64,000 nt of DNA from Nitratiruptor sp. (GTDB lineage Bacteria > Campylobacterota > Campylobacteria > Campylobacterales > Nitratiruptoraceae): positions 1-64,000 of the forward strand of contig PUXW01000006.1 in assembly GCA_009659925.1 (NCBI GenBank). Direction: 5' to 3'. A program made the position numbers and the translations under genes. The notes beneath the pieces were generated by a model that had not been told where the DNA came from, did no database searches, and worked only from the letters and a program-made list of their open reading frames with translations. This document shows, piece after piece, positions 35,855-44,194 of the stretch; positions within the stretch are counted from its first letter, which is position 1; each line of letters starts with the position of its first letter.

Positions 35855-36940
35855 ATGGATCGGCTCTTCTACCTCGATCACGCCCCCATCCCCTTCCACT
35901 TCCGTCCTACTCCCGAAACCTTCGTAGTGGAGGAGGTACCTCTTTATCCCTTCAAGGGGGAGGGGGAGCACCTCATCGTCAAGGTGCGCAAGAAGGGGCT
36001 TACCACCTGGCAGATGCTCCAGATCTTGAGTGAGCACTTGGGAGTGAAGATCCGGGATATCGGCTATGCCGGGCTTAAAGACAAAAATGCCCTCACCTAC
36101 CAGTACATCTCCCTCCCCCGCTCCTTCCAAGAGAGGCTCCAGCGCTTCTCGCATCCTCAAATCAAGATTATCGAGACCACCTACCATACCAACAAGCTCC
36201 GTTTGGGCCATCTCAAGGGAAACCGCTTCTTTATCCGGCTCAAGAAGGTCTCTCCAGTTGATGGGAGACGGATCGATTCGGTATTGAAACAGATCGACGC
36301 TATGGGCTTACCCAACTTCTTTGGATACCAGCGCTTCGGGGTCGATGGAGAGAACTACAAGATCGGGGAGGCCCTGGTCAGGGGGGAGAGGAAGGTCTCC
36401 AAGGCGAGGATGCGCCGCTTCTACATCAATGCCTACCAGAGCCATCTGTTCAACCTCTGGCTCTCTAAACGGATCGAATATTCCAAGCTCATCAACGCCT
36501 TCTCCCTCAAGGAGCTTGAGCAGATCTTTGACCTTCCCCAAGGGATTCTCAAGGAGCTCAAGGAACAGCCCCACTTCTTCAAACTCTATCCTGGAGATGT
36601 GATGGAGCACTATCCTTCAGGGAGGTTCTTTTTGGCCGATAATGTGGTGGCTGAGGGCGAACGCTTCTTTGCCCGCCAGATCGCTCCTACAGGATTGCTC
36701 CCTGGAATCCGGACCAAACGGGCCGATGGGCTGGCCCGGGAGATCGAACGGGATTTTGACGATGAGGCCATCACAGAGTTTGGGGCCAGACGCTTTGCCT
36801 GGATCTTCGTCGAAGATCTCGTGGGAGAGTACCAGCAGGAGCGGGGATGGTACCACTTAAACTTCTTTTTACCAAAAGGAAGTTATGCTACGGTACTACT
36901 CGAAGAGATCGCCCATAGAAAATTGAAGGAGTGCCAATGA
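35855..36940 (+). CDS. truD: tRNA pseudouridine-13 synthase
   Basis: Isomerises U13 in tRNA-Glu. The catalytic Asp76 is in GYAGLKDKNA, and the NFFGYQRFG motif (about 153-160) and the inserted TRUD domain with FYINAYQSHLFN are visible. 361 residues, normal. The start has TAAGGAG upstream. It is coupled by a 4-nt overlap (ATGA) to the next gene. Confidence 0.95.
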   Translation: MDRLFYLDHAPIPFHFRPTPETFVVEEVPLYPFKGEGEHLIVKVRKKGLTTWQMLQILSEHLGVKIRDIGYAGLKDKNALTYQYISLPRSFQERLQRFSHPQIKIIETTYHTNKLRLGHLKGNRFFIRLKKVSPVDGRRIDSVLKQIDAMGLPNFFGYQRFGVDGENYKIGEALVRGERKVSKARMRRFYINAYQSHLFNLWLSKRIEYSKLINAFSLKELEQIFDLPQGILKELKEQPHFFKLYPGDVMEHYPSGRFFLADNVVAEGERFFARQIAPTGLLPGIRTKRADGLAREIERDFDDEAITEFGARRFAWIFVEDLVGEYQQERGWYHLNFFLPKGSYATVLLEEIAHRKLKECQ

Positions 36941-37950
36941 AGTTGGAGATCAAAGCGATGTTTTTCGACGCTGCAAGGGACTATCTCCCCCACTATCGCT
37001 CGTTCTGGTTTGAGGTGGATGAAAGGAGGTCGATAGGCCATCTCCTCGAGCGCATCGCCCAAACCGACGAAGAGTTTGACTACGATCCCAACTACCCCCT
37101 CTTGCGGATCAACTCCATCGTCGTCCCCTACACCAAGAGAATCGATGAGGTTGCAAAGGAGTTTGGTCGGGAGTGGGTTATCGATCCCATCAGCAAGTAT
37201 CGCTCCACCAACGATTTACTCATCGATCAAAGCGATATGGATCGGGCCTTCGCCCTCATCGAACCCTATGCAAGTGGGGAGGATCGCCTCTTCTTTTACT
37301 CCAACAAGGAGCTCCACTACGCTTCAGCAACCTTGGAGTTTGATAAGGAGTACATTGGCGATGCGATCCTGGTCACCGCATACCGGATGATCAAGCGGGG
37401 CAATCCCCATAAAGAGGAGATCCTCCAGGCCATCAGCGAGGGTGTCAGCGGGTTGTGGAGCTGTGAGTTTGAAAACCTCATCTACCAGGGGCGCGACTAT
37501 GGTCCCTGGATCGAGGAGCTCAAATCGTGGGTTCAACCTCCCAAGCTCGACCTCTTCTGGCGACTTTGCTCCCGCTTAACCCGCAAGAAGCAACCCCCCA
37601 TTATCGAAGGACTCGAAGGGGTACCAACGGCCCTCTACCATCCAACCCCTCAGGCCCGTCAGTGGCTCTTGGACAAAGGCGCCCTCCTCGTTCCCTTCCC
37701 TCGAGAGTGGCGTAAGGGAGGTGAGAGCCTTATCGATGTCAATCCAGAGTTGGCCTATCGTAAAGGGGCTGCCATCTTACTCGATGCCATGGACAATGGG
37801 GCCGAGCTCTTCGTAACCTCCTCCAAGGAGCAAGCTGAGTACTTCCGCTCCAATTTTGGCCATTTCGAGCGCAGCGCTGGACGGGAGATCTATCTCGACA
37901 TCATCGCCTTGGAAGAGCTAGAGGAGATTGGCTTGCGGGAGGAGGTCTAA
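36937..37950 (+). CDS. DUF5644-like protein: cysteine-less relative of SdhB, with a CCG-like C-terminus
   Basis: A 337-residue protein that aligns by eye with this window's SdhB. DYLPHY (residues 15-20) and VDER recur at the same distance from the N-terminus, FGREWVIDPISKYR matches FGRELTFEPVSKKR, and EYIG matches EYLG before a similar helix. Yet every iron-sulfur cysteine is gone. The last 110 residues (ALYHPTPQAR ... ILLDAMDNGAELFVTS) recall the CCG domain of SdhE (ALYTGCTARE ... IIDAFDNDADLMVTP), again without cysteines. Probably a structural or regulatory derivative; function unknown. ATG at 36937 (AAGGAG upstream) is preferred over GTG at 36931. Confidence 0.75.
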   Translation: MKLEIKAMFFDAARDYLPHYRSFWFEVDERRSIGHLLERIAQTDEEFDYDPNYPLLRINSIVVPYTKRIDEVAKEFGREWVIDPISKYRSTNDLLIDQSDMDRAFALIEPYASGEDRLFFYSNKELHYASATLEFDKEYIGDAILVTAYRMIKRGNPHKEEILQAISEGVSGLWSCEFENLIYQGRDYGPWIEELKSWVQPPKLDLFWRLCSRLTRKKQPPIIEGLEGVPTALYHPTPQARQWLLDKGALLVPFPREWRKGGESLIDVNPELAYRKGAAILLDAMDNGAELFVTSSKEQAEYFRSNFGHFERSAGREIYLDIIALEELEEIGLREEV

Positions 37951-38254: not shown

Positions 38255-39004
38255 ATGAAACTAAAAAAGAAACGGTGGTTCATGCAGATCTTCGGCGTTG
38301 GCGGGGGGGAGAGCGAGTTTGAAGCCAGCGAAGGGGAGCAGCCGGGGAGTGCCTCGATCGTAACCGAGGGGACGACGGTTATTGGAAAGATTGTCGGGAA
38401 CGATAGCGTCCACGTGGATGGGGTTGTTCGGGGCGATATCAAGGTCAACAATATCGTTATTATCGGCAAAAACGGGAAAGTCTACGGGGATTTGCGGGCC
38501 AAGCAGGTCATTTGCAACGGAGAGTGCCAGGGCAATATTATCGCCGATAGCGTTGAGGTCCTCGAACATGGACTCTGCGAAGGGGAGGTTCGGGTCAACA
38601 AGATCCTGGTCAAGGGGAGATTTCACGGGAATCTCATTTGTGGTGGTCTCTTCGTCGACCATGGAGGGGAAGTCCAAGTGGTGGGCCAGGTGAAGAAGGT
38701 GGTCGTCGCCGGTCTGGTCGATGGACAGCTGGCTTGCAAGGAGTTGCGTACCCTCCCGACCAGTATCCTCAGAGGACGGATCTTCGCCGAAGAGATCCAA
38801 AACGAAGGGGGACGAATCGAGTGTTCTATCGGCCGCTTCTCCGATCTGGCCAAAGAGAATGAACAGGCCCGCTACTACCTTGGCAAGTTCAACGCCATCG
38901 AAGGCTACATCCTTCTGGAGGACAAGGAGTTTTATACCGACGTCGAGGCGGAGCAAAAGGGTGAGGATACTATCGAAGTCGAGGTTGAAGAAAGGAGAGG
39001 GTAG
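38255..39004 (+). CDS. Bactofilin (polymer-forming cytoskeletal protein)
   Basis: Self-assembling beta-helix filament protein; the Helicobacter homologue CcmA sets cell curvature with Csd peptidases. After a basic, partly hydrophobic N-terminus, residues about 35-135 show the short repeated VxGxIxxxxxVxVxGxxxGdI pattern of the DUF583 helix (VIGKIVGNDSVHVDGVVRGD). The tail from about 180 is longer than in most bactofilins and acidic at the end. The next gene starts within its stop codon. A membrane-anchored M23 peptidase lies at the far end of this operon, which fits a cell-shape role. Confidence 0.9.
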   Translation: MKLKKKRWFMQIFGVGGGESEFEASEGEQPGSASIVTEGTTVIGKIVGNDSVHVDGVVRGDIKVNNIVIIGKNGKVYGDLRAKQVICNGECQGNIIADSVEVLEHGLCEGEVRVNKILVKGRFHGNLICGGLFVDHGGEVQVVGQVKKVVVAGLVDGQLACKELRTLPTSILRGRIFAEEIQNEGGRIECSIGRFSDLAKENEQARYYLGKFNAIEGYILLEDKEFYTDVEAEQKGEDTIEVEVEERRG

Positions 39005-39621
39005 TGGGTAGGATTTGGATCGTTGCCCTCATGGCGGTGCTGGCTCTAGGAGGCGAGGATTTGAAGGTGAAGATCACCGAGGATCTGCCCTATGTGGATG
39101 TGGAGGTCAACGGGAAGATCGTACGCATCCAACGTATCCAGGATACCAACCACAAGCTGCGCAACAGTTACATTCGCACCTCCCGTCCGGCTCCCCCCTT
39201 TTATGTTCAACGGTTTCAACCGGTCGAGGGGGTGGAGACCATTGGAGAGCTGGAACTTCTGGACTTCTTGCAGAAGAAGGTCAATCTGGACGAGGGGCTC
39301 CTCATCGACGCTCGCATGCCCCAGTGGTTCAAGCAGGGGACGATTCCAGGGGCCGTCAACATTCCCTTCTCCCTCTTTTACAGCAACCGCTACACTGATA
39401 GGATCTTGAGCCATCTCGGAGTCAAGATCGAGAATGGGAAGCGGGACTTTTCCAACGCCACCGAACTGGTGATCTTTGACAACGGCCCCTGGTGCCAGCA
39501 GGCGGTTCGGGAGATTAAGAACCTCGTCCAGCTTGGCTATCCCAAAGAGAAGATCCACTACTATCGAGGTGGTATGCAGTATTGGCAGATCTTGGGTCTG
39601 ACCACTCTCAAACCGGAGTAG
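39004..39621 (+). CDS. Secreted rhodanese-like protein 1
   Basis: 205 residues; the GTG start shares a base with the bactofilin stop. A signal peptide (about 1-17) sends it to the periplasm. A family-specific N-terminal part (about 20-85, with KIVRIQRIQD and TSRPAPPFY) precedes a single rhodanese domain: LLIDARMPQWFKQGTIPGAVNIPF, then Cys164 in DNGPWC followed by QQAVRE, the sulfur-carrying loop. It probably moves sulfane sulfur or is a redox protein. A paralogue lies two genes on, at 41301. Confidence 0.85.
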   Translation: MGRIWIVALMAVLALGGEDLKVKITEDLPYVDVEVNGKIVRIQRIQDTNHKLRNSYIRTSRPAPPFYVQRFQPVEGVETIGELELLDFLQKKVNLDEGLLIDARMPQWFKQGTIPGAVNIPFSLFYSNRYTDRILSHLGVKIENGKRDFSNATELVIFDNGPWCQQAVREIKNLVQLGYPKEKIHYYRGGMQYWQILGLTTLKPE

Positions 39622-39625
39622 CGCT

Positions 39626-41287
39626 ATGAGAAAGATCGTTGTGGCACTGATCATGGGGGGCCTTCTGGCCTGGGGAATGAGTGACAAGGAGCTTGCGATC
39701 AACATCAACCTCGCTGGAAAGCAGCGGATGCTCACCCAGCGAATGGCCAAGGATCTCCTCATGGTGGTGGCCGGCATTAAAAGCCAAGAGGCCAAAGAGG
39801 ATCTGCGCTCGAGTATGGAGCTTTTTGATCGAACGATCAAGGGGCTCATGCAAGGGGACAAGGGCCTGGGACTGGTCGCCTCTAAGGAGCAAAATGTCCA
39901 GGAGCAACTCAAGAAGGTCTACTCCCTCTGGCTCCCCTTCAAGGAGCGGGTGGAGCGGATCCTCTCTGGCAACTACTCTAAGGAGGATGTGGCCTATATC
40001 AAGGAGCACGATCTAAAACTCTTGGAGGAGATGAACCGGGCGGTAGGCTTTTTGGTAGAAAGTGGCAAGGCCAGTAAGGCCCAAAAGGCCCAGGCCATCA
40101 ACCTGGCTGGCAAGGAGCGGATGCTCACCCAGCGCATAGCCAAGGATTTGCTCTTGCTCCACCTCGATCCAAACTCCAAGGAGGCCAAAGCCGATTTACA
40201 AGAGAGCATGGCCCTCTTTGAGCGGATTCTCAAGGGGCTCCAGCATGGAGATAAGGAGCTTGGGCTGGCTCCAACCCAGGCTCCATGGATTGTGGCCGAG
40301 CTCCAGCGGGCCCAGGAGATGTGGGAGGAGTTTAAAGCCAGAGTTCAAAAGGCCAAGAGTAAGGAGGATTTAGCCAAGCTCATGGAGATGAGTGATGCCC
40401 TCTTGGCCCAGATGAACAAGATCACCAAGATGTACGAGGCCATCTACAATCGGCGCAAGAAGATTGCCTCCATCAACTCCATCGTCAACGAGTTCGTCGA
40501 GGAGAAGGAGGGGCAAAAGCATGTGATCAACCTGGCGGGCAAACAGCGGATGCTGACTCAAAAAATGAGCAAGGAGGCACTGCTTGCTGCTTTGAACCAG
40601 GGGAGTCAGCAGAACTTGGGCCAGTTGCGATCCGACATGGAGCTTTACGATCGGACCCTCCAAGGGTTCAAGAAGGGAGATGCCGAGCTTGGTTTGAGTG
40701 CCACCACCAACCCCGAGGTGCTTGCTGCCATCCAACAGGTAGAACAGCTTTGGAATCCCTTCAAAGAGCATGTAGAGCGCTTCCTAGCCCAGGGGAGCGT
40801 GAAGGATCTGGGCTATATCGTCGCAAAGAATGAGGAGCTCCTCAAGCGCTCCAACGATCTGGTCCAAACCTTCAAGAGGGCCTATCCCACCGAGGGTCTG
40901 ATGGATGAGTCGCGCAGGGAGATCGTCGATATTGCCGGACGCCAGCGGATGTTGACCCAGAAGATGACCAAGGAAAAGTTGCTGGTTATGCTTGGAGTCA
41001 ATCCCGAGGAGAACAAGCGTAAGCTCCAAGAGACCATTGCCCTCTTCGACCGCTCCCTTCACGATCTTATCCATGGCAACCAGGAACGCCTCCTGGCTAA
41101 GCCAAGTAACAAGGCCATTATCCAACAGTTTCGAAAGGTAGAGACCCTCTGGAAGCAGCTGAAGCCACTGTACGAGAAGGATCAACTCAGCGACGCGGAA
41201 AAAGAGTTGCTCATGAAGGGGAATGTCCTTTTGCTCAAAGAGATGGATAAAGCGGTAGTCTTGTGTGAAAGTGCGACGGAATATTGA
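39626..41287 (+). CDS. Secreted protein with four PilJ/NarX-type sensor domains
   Basis: 553 residues: signal peptide (about 1-17), then four copies of the alpha-helical PilJ-type N-terminal domain known from NarX, NarQ and PilJ receptors. Each starts with an [IV]-[ND]-[LI]-A-G-[KR]-x-R-M-L-T-Q box, at residues 27, 158, 301 and 434, and continues to an ELFDRT...GD.ELGL helix. No membrane segment, kinase, HAMP or MCP part is present, so it is not a receptor itself. It could be a soluble ligand binder in the periplasm. It lies between two secreted rhodaneses and is 4 nt from the first. Confidence 0.85.
   Translation: MRKIVVALIMGGLLAWGMSDKELAININLAGKQRMLTQRMAKDLLMVVAGIKSQEAKEDLRSSMELFDRTIKGLMQGDKGLGLVASKEQNVQEQLKKVYSLWLPFKERVERILSGNYSKEDVAYIKEHDLKLLEEMNRAVGFLVESGKASKAQKAQAINLAGKERMLTQRIAKDLLLLHLDPNSKEAKADLQESMALFERILKGLQHGDKELGLAPTQAPWIVAELQRAQEMWEEFKARVQKAKSKEDLAKLMEMSDALLAQMNKITKMYEAIYNRRKKIASINSIVNEFVEEKEGQKHVINLAGKQRMLTQKMSKEALLAALNQGSQQNLGQLRSDMELYDRTLQGFKKGDAELGLSATTNPEVLAAIQQVEQLWNPFKEHVERFLAQGSVKDLGYIVAKNEELLKRSNDLVQTFKRAYPTEGLMDESRREIVDIAGRQRMLTQKMTKEKLLVMLGVNPEENKRKLQETIALFDRSLHDLIHGNQERLLAKPSNKAIIQQFRKVETLWKQLKPLYEKDQLSDAEKELLMKGNVLLLKEMDKAVVLCESATEY
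39704..41080 (+). repeat. Four-fold internal domain repeat
   Basis: The repeat unit is about 131-143 codons long. Boxes with the GKQRMLTQ-like core begin near 39704, 40097, 40526 and 40925. The copies differ at many positions, so this is an old duplication rather than recent slippage. Copy 4 is the most diverged (IAGRQRMLTQKM). Confidence 0.8.
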
Positions 41288-41300
41288 GGAAAGGATTGGA

Positions 41301-41957
41301 ATGAAAAGGATCTTGGCGGCCTGCTGGATCGTAGTAGCCCTCTTTGGTGCTACCAAAGAGGAAGATGAGATGGTGCTGGTGCGAATCACCAAAGATATTC
41401 CCTACATTTATGTCGATCACAAGGGGACCAAAATCAAGGTCATGCGCATTCAAGATCCCGGCCACCTTCTCCTGGATGACTATTCCAAGACTTCACGCCC
41501 CTGCCCTCCCTTTTGCATCCATCCCATTTCGGTGGACAAGCGGATTAAGACCATTGCTACGGTGGAGATGATCGAATTCATGCGGGATAAGGTCAATAGC
41601 GGCAAAGGATTCGTCATCGACGCCCGCCTCCCCCACTGGTATGAGCTGGAGACCATTCCCTCGGCCATCAACCTTCCCTTCACCCTCTTGGAAAAGGGGG
41701 ACAAGGAGGTGGCCAAGAAGCTCTTCAAACTCTTTGGGATGGAGGTGAAGGCAGATGGAAGTTGGGACTTCTCCAAGGCCAAGGAGTTGGCGATCTTTTG
41801 CAATGGAGTCTGGTGTGACCAATCCCCAAGGCTCATACGCCAGCTCCTCAAATATGGCTATCCAGCCGACAAAATCCTCTACTATCGCAACGGGATGCAG
41901 GGGTGGAAGCTCCTGGGATTGACCACCGTTGTGGAAAAGGGGAAGGTCAAGAAATAA
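41301..41957 (+). CDS. Secreted rhodanese-like protein 2
   Basis: 218 residues from the ATG at 41301 (AGGAAAGGA upstream); the longer frame overlaps the previous gene and was not used. Signal peptide about 1-17. It is paralogous to the protein at 39004: VRITKDIPYIYVD, RIQDPGH, KTSRPCPPF and VIDARLPHWYELETIPSAINLPF line up. The active-loop Cys172 is in CNGVWC. Unlike its paralogue it has an added Cys68-x3-Cys72 pair in the N-terminal part, possibly redox-active or metal-binding. Confidence 0.85.
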   Translation: MKRILAACWIVVALFGATKEEDEMVLVRITKDIPYIYVDHKGTKIKVMRIQDPGHLLLDDYSKTSRPCPPFCIHPISVDKRIKTIATVEMIEFMRDKVNSGKGFVIDARLPHWYELETIPSAINLPFTLLEKGDKEVAKKLFKLFGMEVKADGSWDFSKAKELAIFCNGVWCDQSPRLIRQLLKYGYPADKILYYRNGMQGWKLLGLTTVVEKGKVKK

Positions 41958-41977: not shown

Positions 41978-43141
41978 ATGAGAAAGATCAATAACACCAT
42001 CGAAGAGGAGTTCAAGAAGTATGGAGCCGATGAGGACTTCTTCCAGGAGGAGGAGCATCGGCTCAAAGGGCATAAGGAGCAGAAGAAGGGGAGTCTCTTC
42101 TCCAAGTTGATATCCTTCCTCATCGCTTTGATCCTGCTCATCGTCTTCTTGATCTTGCTCAAGGTGGGCTATATGTTCTTTGTCAATCCCACCGCCTTCA
42201 ACCAGCTTTTGGGCAAGGGAAATGGAAGCTCACTGGCCGCCACAGAGTCCTCTTCCTCCAGCGTTCTTGCAGAAGCGGCCAAGAGCATGAAGCAGGAAGA
42301 AAGGAGCTCGACGACTTCTACCATCGCTGCTACGAGTACCTCCTCCTCAAGTTCTTCAGCCTCTAGCCTGGCTCAAAACCAGAATCGAGAGACCTCTTCT
42401 CAATCCCAAGCCCAAAGCCAGCAAGAGAGCCAGCAACAGCCAGCAACTCAATCCCAACAGCTAGCCCAAACAGCAAACCAGAGCCAGGGCAAGGAGGGGG
42501 GAAAGGTAGCCCAAGATATCGGGGCCCAGCTGGCTCAAGTTATCTCCGAGGCCCAAAAGAGCCAATCCCAGCAAAAGAGTAGCGTTGTGCAAAGTAGTTC
42601 AGTGGCTACCACTGCTCCCTTGGCTTCCGAGAAGCTCCAGGAGATGAGTGATGAAGAGTTGGTGAAACTCCTTTTGACCCTCAAGCCGGACCAGTTGGAA
42701 AAGCTCGATGTCAAGGCCTTGTTGCTGCGAAAAAAAAAGGAGAGCGCTACCGCCAATCAAAACAGCAACTTAGCCAAGACCAAATACCTCAACAACCAGG
42801 CTATCATCACCAAGGAGCAAAAGGCCAAAGAGAGTGGAAACCTGGCCCAGGTCTCCAAAGAGCTCACCTCCCTCATCGCTCAGGTTGAGCAGCAAAAGCC
42901 CAAGCAGACCCAGAGCAAGAAGGAGAAGCAGTACTTCAAGAGCATCCAAAAGGAGCTGAGAACCCGGGAAAAGTCGATGCGATTTTACATCGTCAAGAAG
43001 GGGGATAGCCTCTCCAAGATTGCCAAGATGGTCTATGGTCGAGCGAGCGATTACATCAAGATCTACGAAGCCAATCAGGACATCATCTCCGATCCCAGAC
43101 TGATCTATCCTGGCCAGAGACTGCGTATCCCAGAACTATAA
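41978..43141 (+). CDS. LysM-domain membrane protein with Ser/Gln-rich linker
   Basis: 387 residues. A charged cytosolic N-terminus (about 1-42), one TM helix (about 43-66), a low-complexity Ser/Thr/Gln/Ala linker (about 80-210), a charged helical part, and a C-terminal LysM domain (about 335-385: [19 protein letters not shown] ... YPGQRLRIP) that binds peptidoglycan. This layout can span from the inner membrane to the wall. It precedes the M23 peptidase by 9 nt and probably helps place it or the PilJ protein at the wall. Confidence 0.85.
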
Positions 43142-43150
43142 GCAGGATCG

Positions 43151-44194
43151 TTGCGAAACAAGTTCATCATTACGATCACCGACATCCATGGCTCCCGGCA
43201 ATACACCCTCAGCAAACTGGTCAAGCGGCTCCTCCTCTGGCTCATCGCCCTGGTAGCCCTGACCATCTGGGGCAGCTACTCGTTGAGTCAGTATTTGAGT
43301 GAACGGCTCAAGGAGATGGAGCGCCGGGAGGGGGCCTTGCTCCAAAAACAGCTCGCCCTAGTCCAAGAAAATAGCGACCTCATCGCGGAAAAGCGTCGTC
43401 TCGAAGAGCTCAACCGCCGCCTTCTCCAGCGCCAACAAGAGCTCATCCAACAAAATGAGGCCCTCCAGCGCTCTATCCAGGAACAGCACGAGGCCCTTGC
43501 CTCCTTGAATCAGCAGCTCCAGGAGGTGGAGCGCATCCTTGGGATTGAAGGGGGAGAGGGGGAGCTCAACAGCTCCCAGACCTCTTCGATGGCGGCTCTC
43601 CTCCAGAGCAAGATGCAAAAGATCAAGCGGCGCAGCCACGAAAATCTCCAGACGGTCACCTCCTTGACAAAACGGGAGCGCAAGCTTCTAGAGCGGAGCA
43701 TTCCCACAGGCCGCCCCGTCAACTATCGGCGGGTTTCAGCTCGATTTGGCTATCGGAACCACCCCATCTACGGGAGGAAGATGTTTCACTTTGGCATCGA
43801 TCTCGTCGCTCCCAGAGGGACTCCTATCTTCGCCCCTGCCGATGGAGTGGTCTTCTTCCGGGGAGTCAAGAAGGGCTATGGCAAGTTTCTCCTCCTTATG
43901 CACCCCTTCGGTTTTTCCACCGCCTATGGCCACTTGAGCAAGATCGTCGTCAAACAGGGGGAATTTGTCCATAAAGGGGAGCTCATCGCCTATGTGGGCA
44001 ATACTGGGCGCAGTACTGGCCCCCACCTCCACTACGAAGTCCGCTACCTCTCCTACTGGCTCGATCCGGCCAAGTTCATCCACTGGCGCAAGGAGCCCTT
44101 TGCTAACTTCAAACGGATCGATAAGGTCGATTGGCAGGGACTCTTGCGCCTCTTGCGCAAACGCTACTACCTTTCGGAGCGCGTCGGCGGCTAG
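43151..44194 (+). CDS. Membrane-anchored M23 peptidase (Csd1/2-like)
   Basis: 347-residue peptidoglycan endopeptidase. A TM helix (about 27-47) is followed by a coiled coil (about 55-140) and a LytM/M23 domain with zinc ligands His213 and Asp217 (HFGID) and His294 in H292-L-H294; so the site is complete. It starts with TTG at 43151, with no nearby ATG in frame. In Helicobacter, proteins of this layout work with bactofilin CcmA to shape the cell; the operon here has a bactofilin at its head. Confidence 0.9.
   Translation: MRNKFIITITDIHGSRQYTLSKLVKRLLLWLIALVALTIWGSYSLSQYLSERLKEMERREGALLQKQLALVQENSDLIAEKRRLEELNRRLLQRQQELIQQNEALQRSIQEQHEALASLNQQLQEVERILGIEGGEGELNSSQTSSMAALLQSKMQKIKRRSHENLQTVTSLTKRERKLLERSIPTGRPVNYRRVSARFGYRNHPIYGRKMFHFGIDLVAPRGTPIFAPADGVVFFRGVKKGYGKFLLLMHPFGFSTAYGHLSKIVVKQGEFVHKGELIAYVGNTGRSTGPHLHYEVRYLSYWLDPAKFIHWRKEPFANFKRIDKVDWQGLLRLLRKRYYLSERVGG

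Follow-up and report, generated by a model that had tools for sequence, protein, structure and literature searches.

This report concerns a run of six genes in a 64,000-nucleotide stretch of DNA from Nitratiruptor sp. (GenBank assembly GCA_009659925.1, contig PUXW01000006.1, positions 1 to 64,000; hereafter the window), and above all a protein with four PilJ domains, here called PilJ4, whose gene lies between two rhodanese genes, RhodA and RhodB. The six genes are all on the plus strand, in the order bactofilin, RhodA, PilJ4, RhodB, LysM protein and M23 endopeptidase, and are tightly packed, with overlaps or gaps of 20 base pairs (bp) or less: the bactofilin stop codon overlaps the RhodA start, and the gaps are 4 bp between RhodA and PilJ4, 13 bp between PilJ4 and RhodB, and 20 bp between RhodB and the LysM gene. 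Pfam searches bore out the preliminary description of the three central products as a rhodanese, a four-PilJ protein and a second rhodanese. From their N-terminal hydrophobic leaders, we infer that all three are secreted. A promoter and terminator scan of the locus gave a signal near chance level. The features of the three genes and of the adjoining LysM gene are as follows (L, G and C numbers below denote loci, genomes and contigs).

39004..39621, plus strand: RhodA, with a leader, an N-terminal extension and a rhodanese domain with the FDNGPWCQQAVR loop (PF00581, E 2.9e-13).
39493-39495, plus strand: codon of RhodA Cys164, from the cysteine map and the ortholog alignment.
39626..41287, plus strand: PilJ4, a leader followed by four PilJ four-helix bundles (PF13675, E 5.4e-80).
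39704..39739, plus strand: PilJ4 N-box of domain 1, INLAGKQRMLTQ (R34), which fits the PMC6381276 consensus and is near-invariant across 18 orthologs.
40097..40132, plus strand: PilJ4 N-box of domain 2, INLAGKERMLTQ (R165), with a single deviation from the consensus, Q to E.
40526..40561, plus strand: PilJ4 N-box of domain 3, INLAGKQRMLTQ (R308), which fits the consensus.
40925..40960, plus strand: PilJ4 N-box of domain 4, VDIAGRQRMLTQ (R441), which fits the consensus.
41301..41957, plus strand: RhodB, with a leader, an N-terminal extension with CPPFC (Cys68, Cys72) and a rhodanese domain (PF00581, E 2.2e-10).
41814-41816, plus strand: codon of Cys172 in the RhodB active loop FCNGVWCDQSPR (Cys167, Cys172), from the cysteine map and the ortholog alignment.
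41978..43141, plus strand: LysM protein, with one membrane pass (residues 45-63), a long linker and a C-terminal LysM domain (PF01476, E 3e-10).

PilJ4 scored 265 bits against PF13675 (cut-off 26.6), with four stretches above threshold, and each domain passed the profile alone in a search of its own genome (E 1e-18 to 6e-22); chance repetition is excluded by the E value of 5e-80. It is the sole PilJ protein in that genome (1.44 Mb, 99.97% complete). PilJ was the only Pfam family above the curated cut-off, and no transmembrane (TM) segment past the leader and no kinase or methyl-accepting chemotaxis protein (MCP) part was found, in agreement with the earlier statement that the protein has no membrane or signalling part. 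A comparison with the NIT domain (PF08376) gave no match up to E 1. The idea that PilJ4 is a broken receptor was dropped, since its soluble architecture recurs unchanged in orthologs from different families. A role in type IV pili, hinted at by the family name alone, was likewise dropped; no pil genes were seen beside PilJ4. One early claim, that PilJ domains normally occur once, has to be withdrawn: the PilJ protein contains a pair of them (PMC6381276), and soluble two-PilJ proteins are widespread in proteobacteria and Campylobacterota.

In the chemoreceptor McpN, nitrate is bound by an N-box, [IVL][ND]xAGxQRML[ST]Q, which lies at the dimer axis and in which R61 has a key role (PMC6381276); the G-x-x-R of the box is also used for nitrate by NarX and NarQ (PMC6381276, PMC8199190). 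The published consensus is matched exactly in domains 1, 3 and 4 of PilJ4, domain 2 has E for Q, and G-x-x-R is present in all four. The same holds for G-x-x-R in 17 of 18 four-PilJ proteins, of which 12 came from a whole-genome search that was not pattern-based and six from a pattern scan of contigs. The patterns of that scan were built from the alignment and include the N-box, so that N-box frequency in the scanned loci is biased; a contig scan with PilJ4 as single query returned no loci, while the alignment-based scan did. Among the 42 residues invariant in the 18 orthologs, 18 fall within the N-box segments, which total 60 residues, and 24 within the other 493. The exceptional protein (L090) has lost boxes 3 and 4 together and kept boxes 1 and 2, as expected if N-boxes act in pairs.

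An AlphaFold2 model of PilJ4 shows four four-helix bundles, with a predicted local distance difference test score (pLDDT) of 85.6 and a predicted template modelling score (pTM) of 0.50. The top profile match among structures in the PDB was the nitrate receptor McpN (6gcv), and Foldseek placed PilJ and McpN first, the latter with TMt 0.83-0.85 against single domains. The McpN ligand-binding domain is a four-helix PilJ bundle with a G-x-x-R N-box that resembles single PilJ4 domains closely (TM score 0.85). McpN, however, sits in the membrane and combines a single PilJ domain with an MCP output, while PilJ4 has four domains, is free and apparently secreted, and has no output domain; the layout of McpN and of the NarX/NarQ kinases (TM, HAMP, and MCP or kinase) is not that of PilJ4. 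When the model of domains 1 and 2 was submitted to VIA-align, the first match was NasR (4akk; Z 21.2, root-mean-square deviation 5.2 over 259 residues), followed by McpN (Z 18.0), NarQ (14.7) and NarX (12.0), and the NasR match stood far above unrelated helical bundles in the list. The NIT domain of NasR likewise has eight helices forming two helical bundles in one chain, but NasR is a protein of the cytoplasm, in which an RNA-binding ANTAR domain is joined to the NIT domain. We consider it fairly probable that the ligand of PilJ4 is nitrate or a like oxyanion.

The link between PilJ4 and the rhodaneses is not confined to the window. Within the genus Nitratiruptor, RhodA-PilJ4-RhodB-LysM-M23 lies 3' of the bactofilin gene in six genomes (L032-L036 and the window), and is absent from four genomes that are nearly complete, in one or two contigs each (G001, G009, G010, G015). 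Outside the genus, at least two other families have the set, its genes in a different order: A-PilJ4-LysM-B (L050, L089), A-PilJ4-B-LysM (L055, L084), A-PilJ4-B (L085) and A-LysM-PilJ4 (L090), where A and B stand for the two rhodaneses. A rhodanese of the same family is adjacent, or separated by the LysM gene only, at 13 of 18 distinct Campylobacterota four-PilJ genes; of the other five, one has a rhodanese 2 kb off, another is close to the end of its contig, and the last three lack one. The contig scan found such a rhodanese at 0 of 69 two-PilJ loci, and the sole two-PilJ gene seen adjoining one (L051/L088) has a four-PilJ gene in its own vicinity. Among 397 genomes sampled across the class, PilJ4 occurred in seven, all with both rhodaneses, while the full-length rhodanese pair was present in only 11 genomes (hypergeometric probability 1e-12, a figure inflated by genome relatedness). 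The triplet, with rhodaneses of one and the same kind, thus co-occurs in several bacterial families, which supports a functional unit. A different arrangement, two adjacent genes for proteins of about 557 and about 570 amino acids, of which one contains a single N-box-like PilJ domain (L042:3564-6958, L043:4792-8189), occurs in genomes without the four-PilJ set (G010, G017).

RhodA and RhodB are paralogous (41-43% identity over 199-212 residues) and have an N-terminal extension in common, as first described. The only cysteine of RhodA is Cys164; RhodB has Cys8 in the leader, Cys68 and Cys72 within CPPFC, and Cys167 and Cys172 within FCNGVWCDQS. The cysteine map places the catalytic residue at the active loop in both proteins (Cys164 and Cys172). 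The classical rhodanese loop, CRxGx[RT], is not matched by the loops found here, CQQAVR and CDQSPR. The AlphaFold2 model of RhodB (pLDDT 87.3) was matched by Foldseek to the general rhodanese fold only, with the N-terminal extension left without assignment. In another Campylobacterota family, a homologue with the same extension is encoded between the SoxY and SoxB genes (L079), and because it sits inside a sox cluster, a sulfur role for RhodA and RhodB is plausible. A known periplasmic rhodanese of sox clusters is SoxL of Allochromatium vinosum. By gene context, the homologue at L079 can be likened to this Sox protein (PMC4213376); the window genes, unlike it, are away from their own sox cluster.

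The catalytic cysteines turned out to be less constant than the N-boxes. At L084:6322-9322, Ser and Asp replace the catalytic Cys in the two rhodaneses, and the four-PilJ protein keeps every N-box; the locus amounts to a natural test of the need for sulfur transfer. The catalytic Cys is also replaced in RhodA of L055 and L051, again with the N-boxes retained. Conservation of the two cysteines, as required by the preliminary description, therefore holds for the window proteins and fails in these relatives. Since both rhodaneses at L084 lack the catalytic Cys, the set cannot serve everywhere as a sulfur relay, and since the N-boxes persist at all three loci, the sulfur chemistry is less tightly constrained than the receptor part. 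These findings weigh on the original proposal of a sulfur relay formed by the three proteins, in which a sulfur species (sulfite, thiosulfate or polysulfide) would be the ligand of the PilJ domains. The chemistry would fit, since a rhodanese acting on thiosulfate releases sulfite, NarX and NarQ are cited in PMC6381276 as binding nitrate, nitrite and sulfite, and sox genes are present in the genome itself as well as around the L079 homologue. The PilJ4 N-boxes, however, are of the nitrate-specific McpN type, and relatives of the protein stand beside napA and NIT-domain kinases. Thus, the sulfur link of the rhodaneses is retained from that proposal, while sulfur-species binding by the PilJ repeats is not supported, because the G-x-x-R N-box is the most conserved feature of the protein and its relatives lie beside nitrate and signalling genes. 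We regard a sulfur relay through PilJ4 as improbable.

The origin of PilJ4 was examined in a tree of half-proteins. Campylobacterota PilJ4 N-halves formed one clade (support 98/95) and C-halves a second (95/86) with a few two-PilJ proteins inside, and other two-PilJ proteins branched beside the N-halves. This placement of the halves indicates that PilJ4 arose from a two-PilJ unit, either by fusion or by duplication in tandem. The four-PilJ proteins of Shimia and Granulosicoccaceae have a separate origin, their own halves clustering together. Two four-PilJ genes of independent origin (L109:4167-9175, L138:5148-8584) and a two-PilJ gene (L157:6953-9615) adjoin a gene for a PBP-like protein to which a peptidoglycan-binding OmpA domain is fused, and so parallel PilJ4 with its LysM partner.

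The soluble two-PilJ proteins resemble PilJ4 in having a domain pair, N-boxes and a secreted appearance, and the PilJ4 halves group with them; they differ in being half as long and in being linked to MCP, kinase or nap genes, with no rhodaneses in the 69 loci. Within 300 bp of the two-PilJ gene, an MCP gene was found at 18 of the 69 loci and a kinase gene at five (23 together). At three of the 18 MCP-linked loci the PilJ open reading frame itself carries the MCP domain, and some of the neighbours were confirmed by Pfam. In many proteobacteria two-PilJ genes lie directly 5' of MCP chemoreceptor genes (L097, L112, L114, L125, L130, L131, L137 and others), which suggests a periplasmic nitrate-binding co-receptor for chemotaxis. 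In Sulfurovum, three to five tandem two-PilJ genes stand right before the gene of a NIT-domain hybrid histidine kinase (L062:5287-9298, L143, L144, L159, L060, L061), as if a set of periplasmic co-receptors fed one kinase. In several families, a two-PilJ protein of 440-457 amino acids is encoded together with a Crp/Fnr-type gene 5' of napA (L037-L041; also L065, L067, L068), and is possibly a nitrate-responsive partner of that regulator; its C-terminal part has no assignment (e.g., L039:7617-12851).

Such neighbourhoods raise the question of whether PilJ4 too is a periplasmic nitrate co-receptor or buffer, which would signal to an unlinked receptor or concentrate nitrate for NapA, with the rhodaneses as mere operon companions. 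Besides the MCP, kinase and napA linkage of the two-PilJ relatives, the PilJ4 genes that have no linked rhodanese (L052, L054, L087) favour this explanation. The genomes of L052 and L054, however, hold the rhodanese set elsewhere, and only the four-PilJ form shows the rhodanese link, which extends across families despite changes in gene order and can hardly be put down to chance neighbourhood. We therefore consider this explanation rather unlikely, if the least so of the alternatives to the proposal made below.

Three further genes of the run accompany the triplet. The LysM gene adjoins the rhodaneses also at L050, L055, L070, L075, L084 and L090, and is thus a recurrent fourth partner of the rhodanese/PilJ set. 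The outer two genes of the run are as follows.

38255..39004, plus strand: bactofilin (PF04519, E 2e-24), 5' of the triplet in Nitratiruptor-clade genomes and divergent in L084 and L085.
43151..44194, plus strand: M23 endopeptidase (PF01551, E 6.6e-32), with a short N-terminal tail and one TM segment (23-41), an LmdC-like layout.

M23 as a partner is limited to the Nitratiruptor-clade, L084 and L085 loci. Further 5', at 36931-37950 of the window, a 339-amino acid protein without any Pfam match is encoded; in several relatives (L032, L033) it likewise stands beside TruD and 5' of bactofilin. Bactofilin-M23 pairs function in morphogenesis (PMC10945521). In the BacA-LmdC operon, as in the window, a bactofilin and a membrane-anchored M23 peptidase belong to one run; unlike there, the window genes are not adjacent, having the rhodanese, PilJ4 and LysM genes, four in all, between them. 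The six genes could accordingly be read as an envelope-shape module, in which bactofilin, M23 and LysM steer local wall remodelling and PilJ4 and the rhodaneses are periplasmic structural or regulatory subunits. The close packing of the run would agree with this, as would the bactofilin and M23 genes that flank the set in the distant L084 and L085, the constancy of LysM, which exceeds that of any other extra partner, and the existence of rhodaneses without Cys. No bactofilin or M23 gene lies beside the set in L050, L055 and L090, however, the first two of which keep the N-boxes, and relatives lacking the module (L167, L168) keep the bactofilin-M23 pair, which is thus independent of it. An envelope role remains a serious rival, to which we assign the same low likelihood as to the sulfur relay.

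The host genome encodes both NapA and a sox cluster, away from the contig of the rhodaneses; the sox genes lie on contig C4 and the rhodaneses on C17. On C4, a two-domain rhodanese is encoded near the sox cluster, beside a molybdopterin oxidoreductase exported by the twin-arginine (TAT) route (L164:2602-3726), so that the genome probably has further periplasmic sulfurtransferases besides RhodA and RhodB.

We propose, tentatively and at somewhat less than even confidence, that PilJ4 is a soluble nitrate-type receptor that gates periplasmic sulfur transfer by the rhodaneses. The module would consist of RhodA, PilJ4, RhodB and the membrane-tethered, peptidoglycan-binding LysM protein, and PilJ4 would be an oxyanion receptor doubled from the widespread two-bundle soluble form. 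Domains 1 and 2, and likewise 3 and 4, probably form one site each, in which two G-x-x-R N-boxes would clamp one nitrate, in a geometry analogous to that of the two subunits in McpN. Nitrate occupancy would most likely alter the shape of PilJ4, and with it the grip of the protein on both rhodaneses, on the LysM anchor or on all of these, so that the passing of sulfane sulfur by the rhodaneses in the periplasm would follow the presence of the acceptor nitrate. The gating step, taken by itself, is doubtful. The most specific version, a periplasmic complex in which PilJ4 with two built-in nitrate sites would act as a direct switch on a pair of sulfur-carrying rhodaneses that LysM keeps at the wall, coupling electron donor to acceptor without a kinase or receptor, is unlikely, and slightly more so than the co-receptor or buffer explanation.

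Several observations count against the proposed receptor that gates the rhodaneses. With a pTM of 0.50, the relative placement of the PilJ4 halves in the model is uncertain. The likeness to NasR is one of overall fold, and any correspondence of the NasR nitrate site to R34/R165 is hypothetical. Nitrate respiration does not discriminate between genomes with and without the set: NapA, present in 24 of 26 genomes, was ruled out as a discriminating partner. SoxB was similarly ruled out as a strict partner by its absence from two nearly complete module genomes (G004, 98%; G064, 99%). The rhodanese pair exists without PilJ4, as A-LysM-B or A-B, in L070-L075; in L070, L072 and L075, such pairs have mainly housekeeping genes as neighbours (Rho, Asp/Glu racemase, UbiA, FKBP), which therefore give no functional hint. 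Finally, no kinase or MCP partner was found at the PilJ4 locus to carry an output.

The literature searches made returned no account of this gene set or of soluble proteins with PilJ domains in tandem. A functional parallel is Thermus DrpA/DrpB, where a periplasmic protein of a different family (DUF2249) has been proposed as a nitrate sensor. Nitrate receptors of the PilJ type have been known as the external portion of kinases and chemoreceptors in the membrane; in the window, this fold, its nitrate boxes intact, makes up a free, apparently secreted protein that is doubled to four bundles and tied to two rhodaneses. The soluble two-PilJ family, in turn, has the look of a class of periplasmic co-receptors, not described before, that would serve chemotaxis and the regulation of nitrate use, and its loci are present in cultivable relatives with Shewanella- and Glaciecola-type genomes. 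Our results suggest that the set is a system not described before, which links extracytoplasmic sulfur chemistry to nitrate. If nitrate binding and the complex are true, PilJ4 and its partners would join both ends of a chemolithotrophic respiration directly, at the level of proteins.

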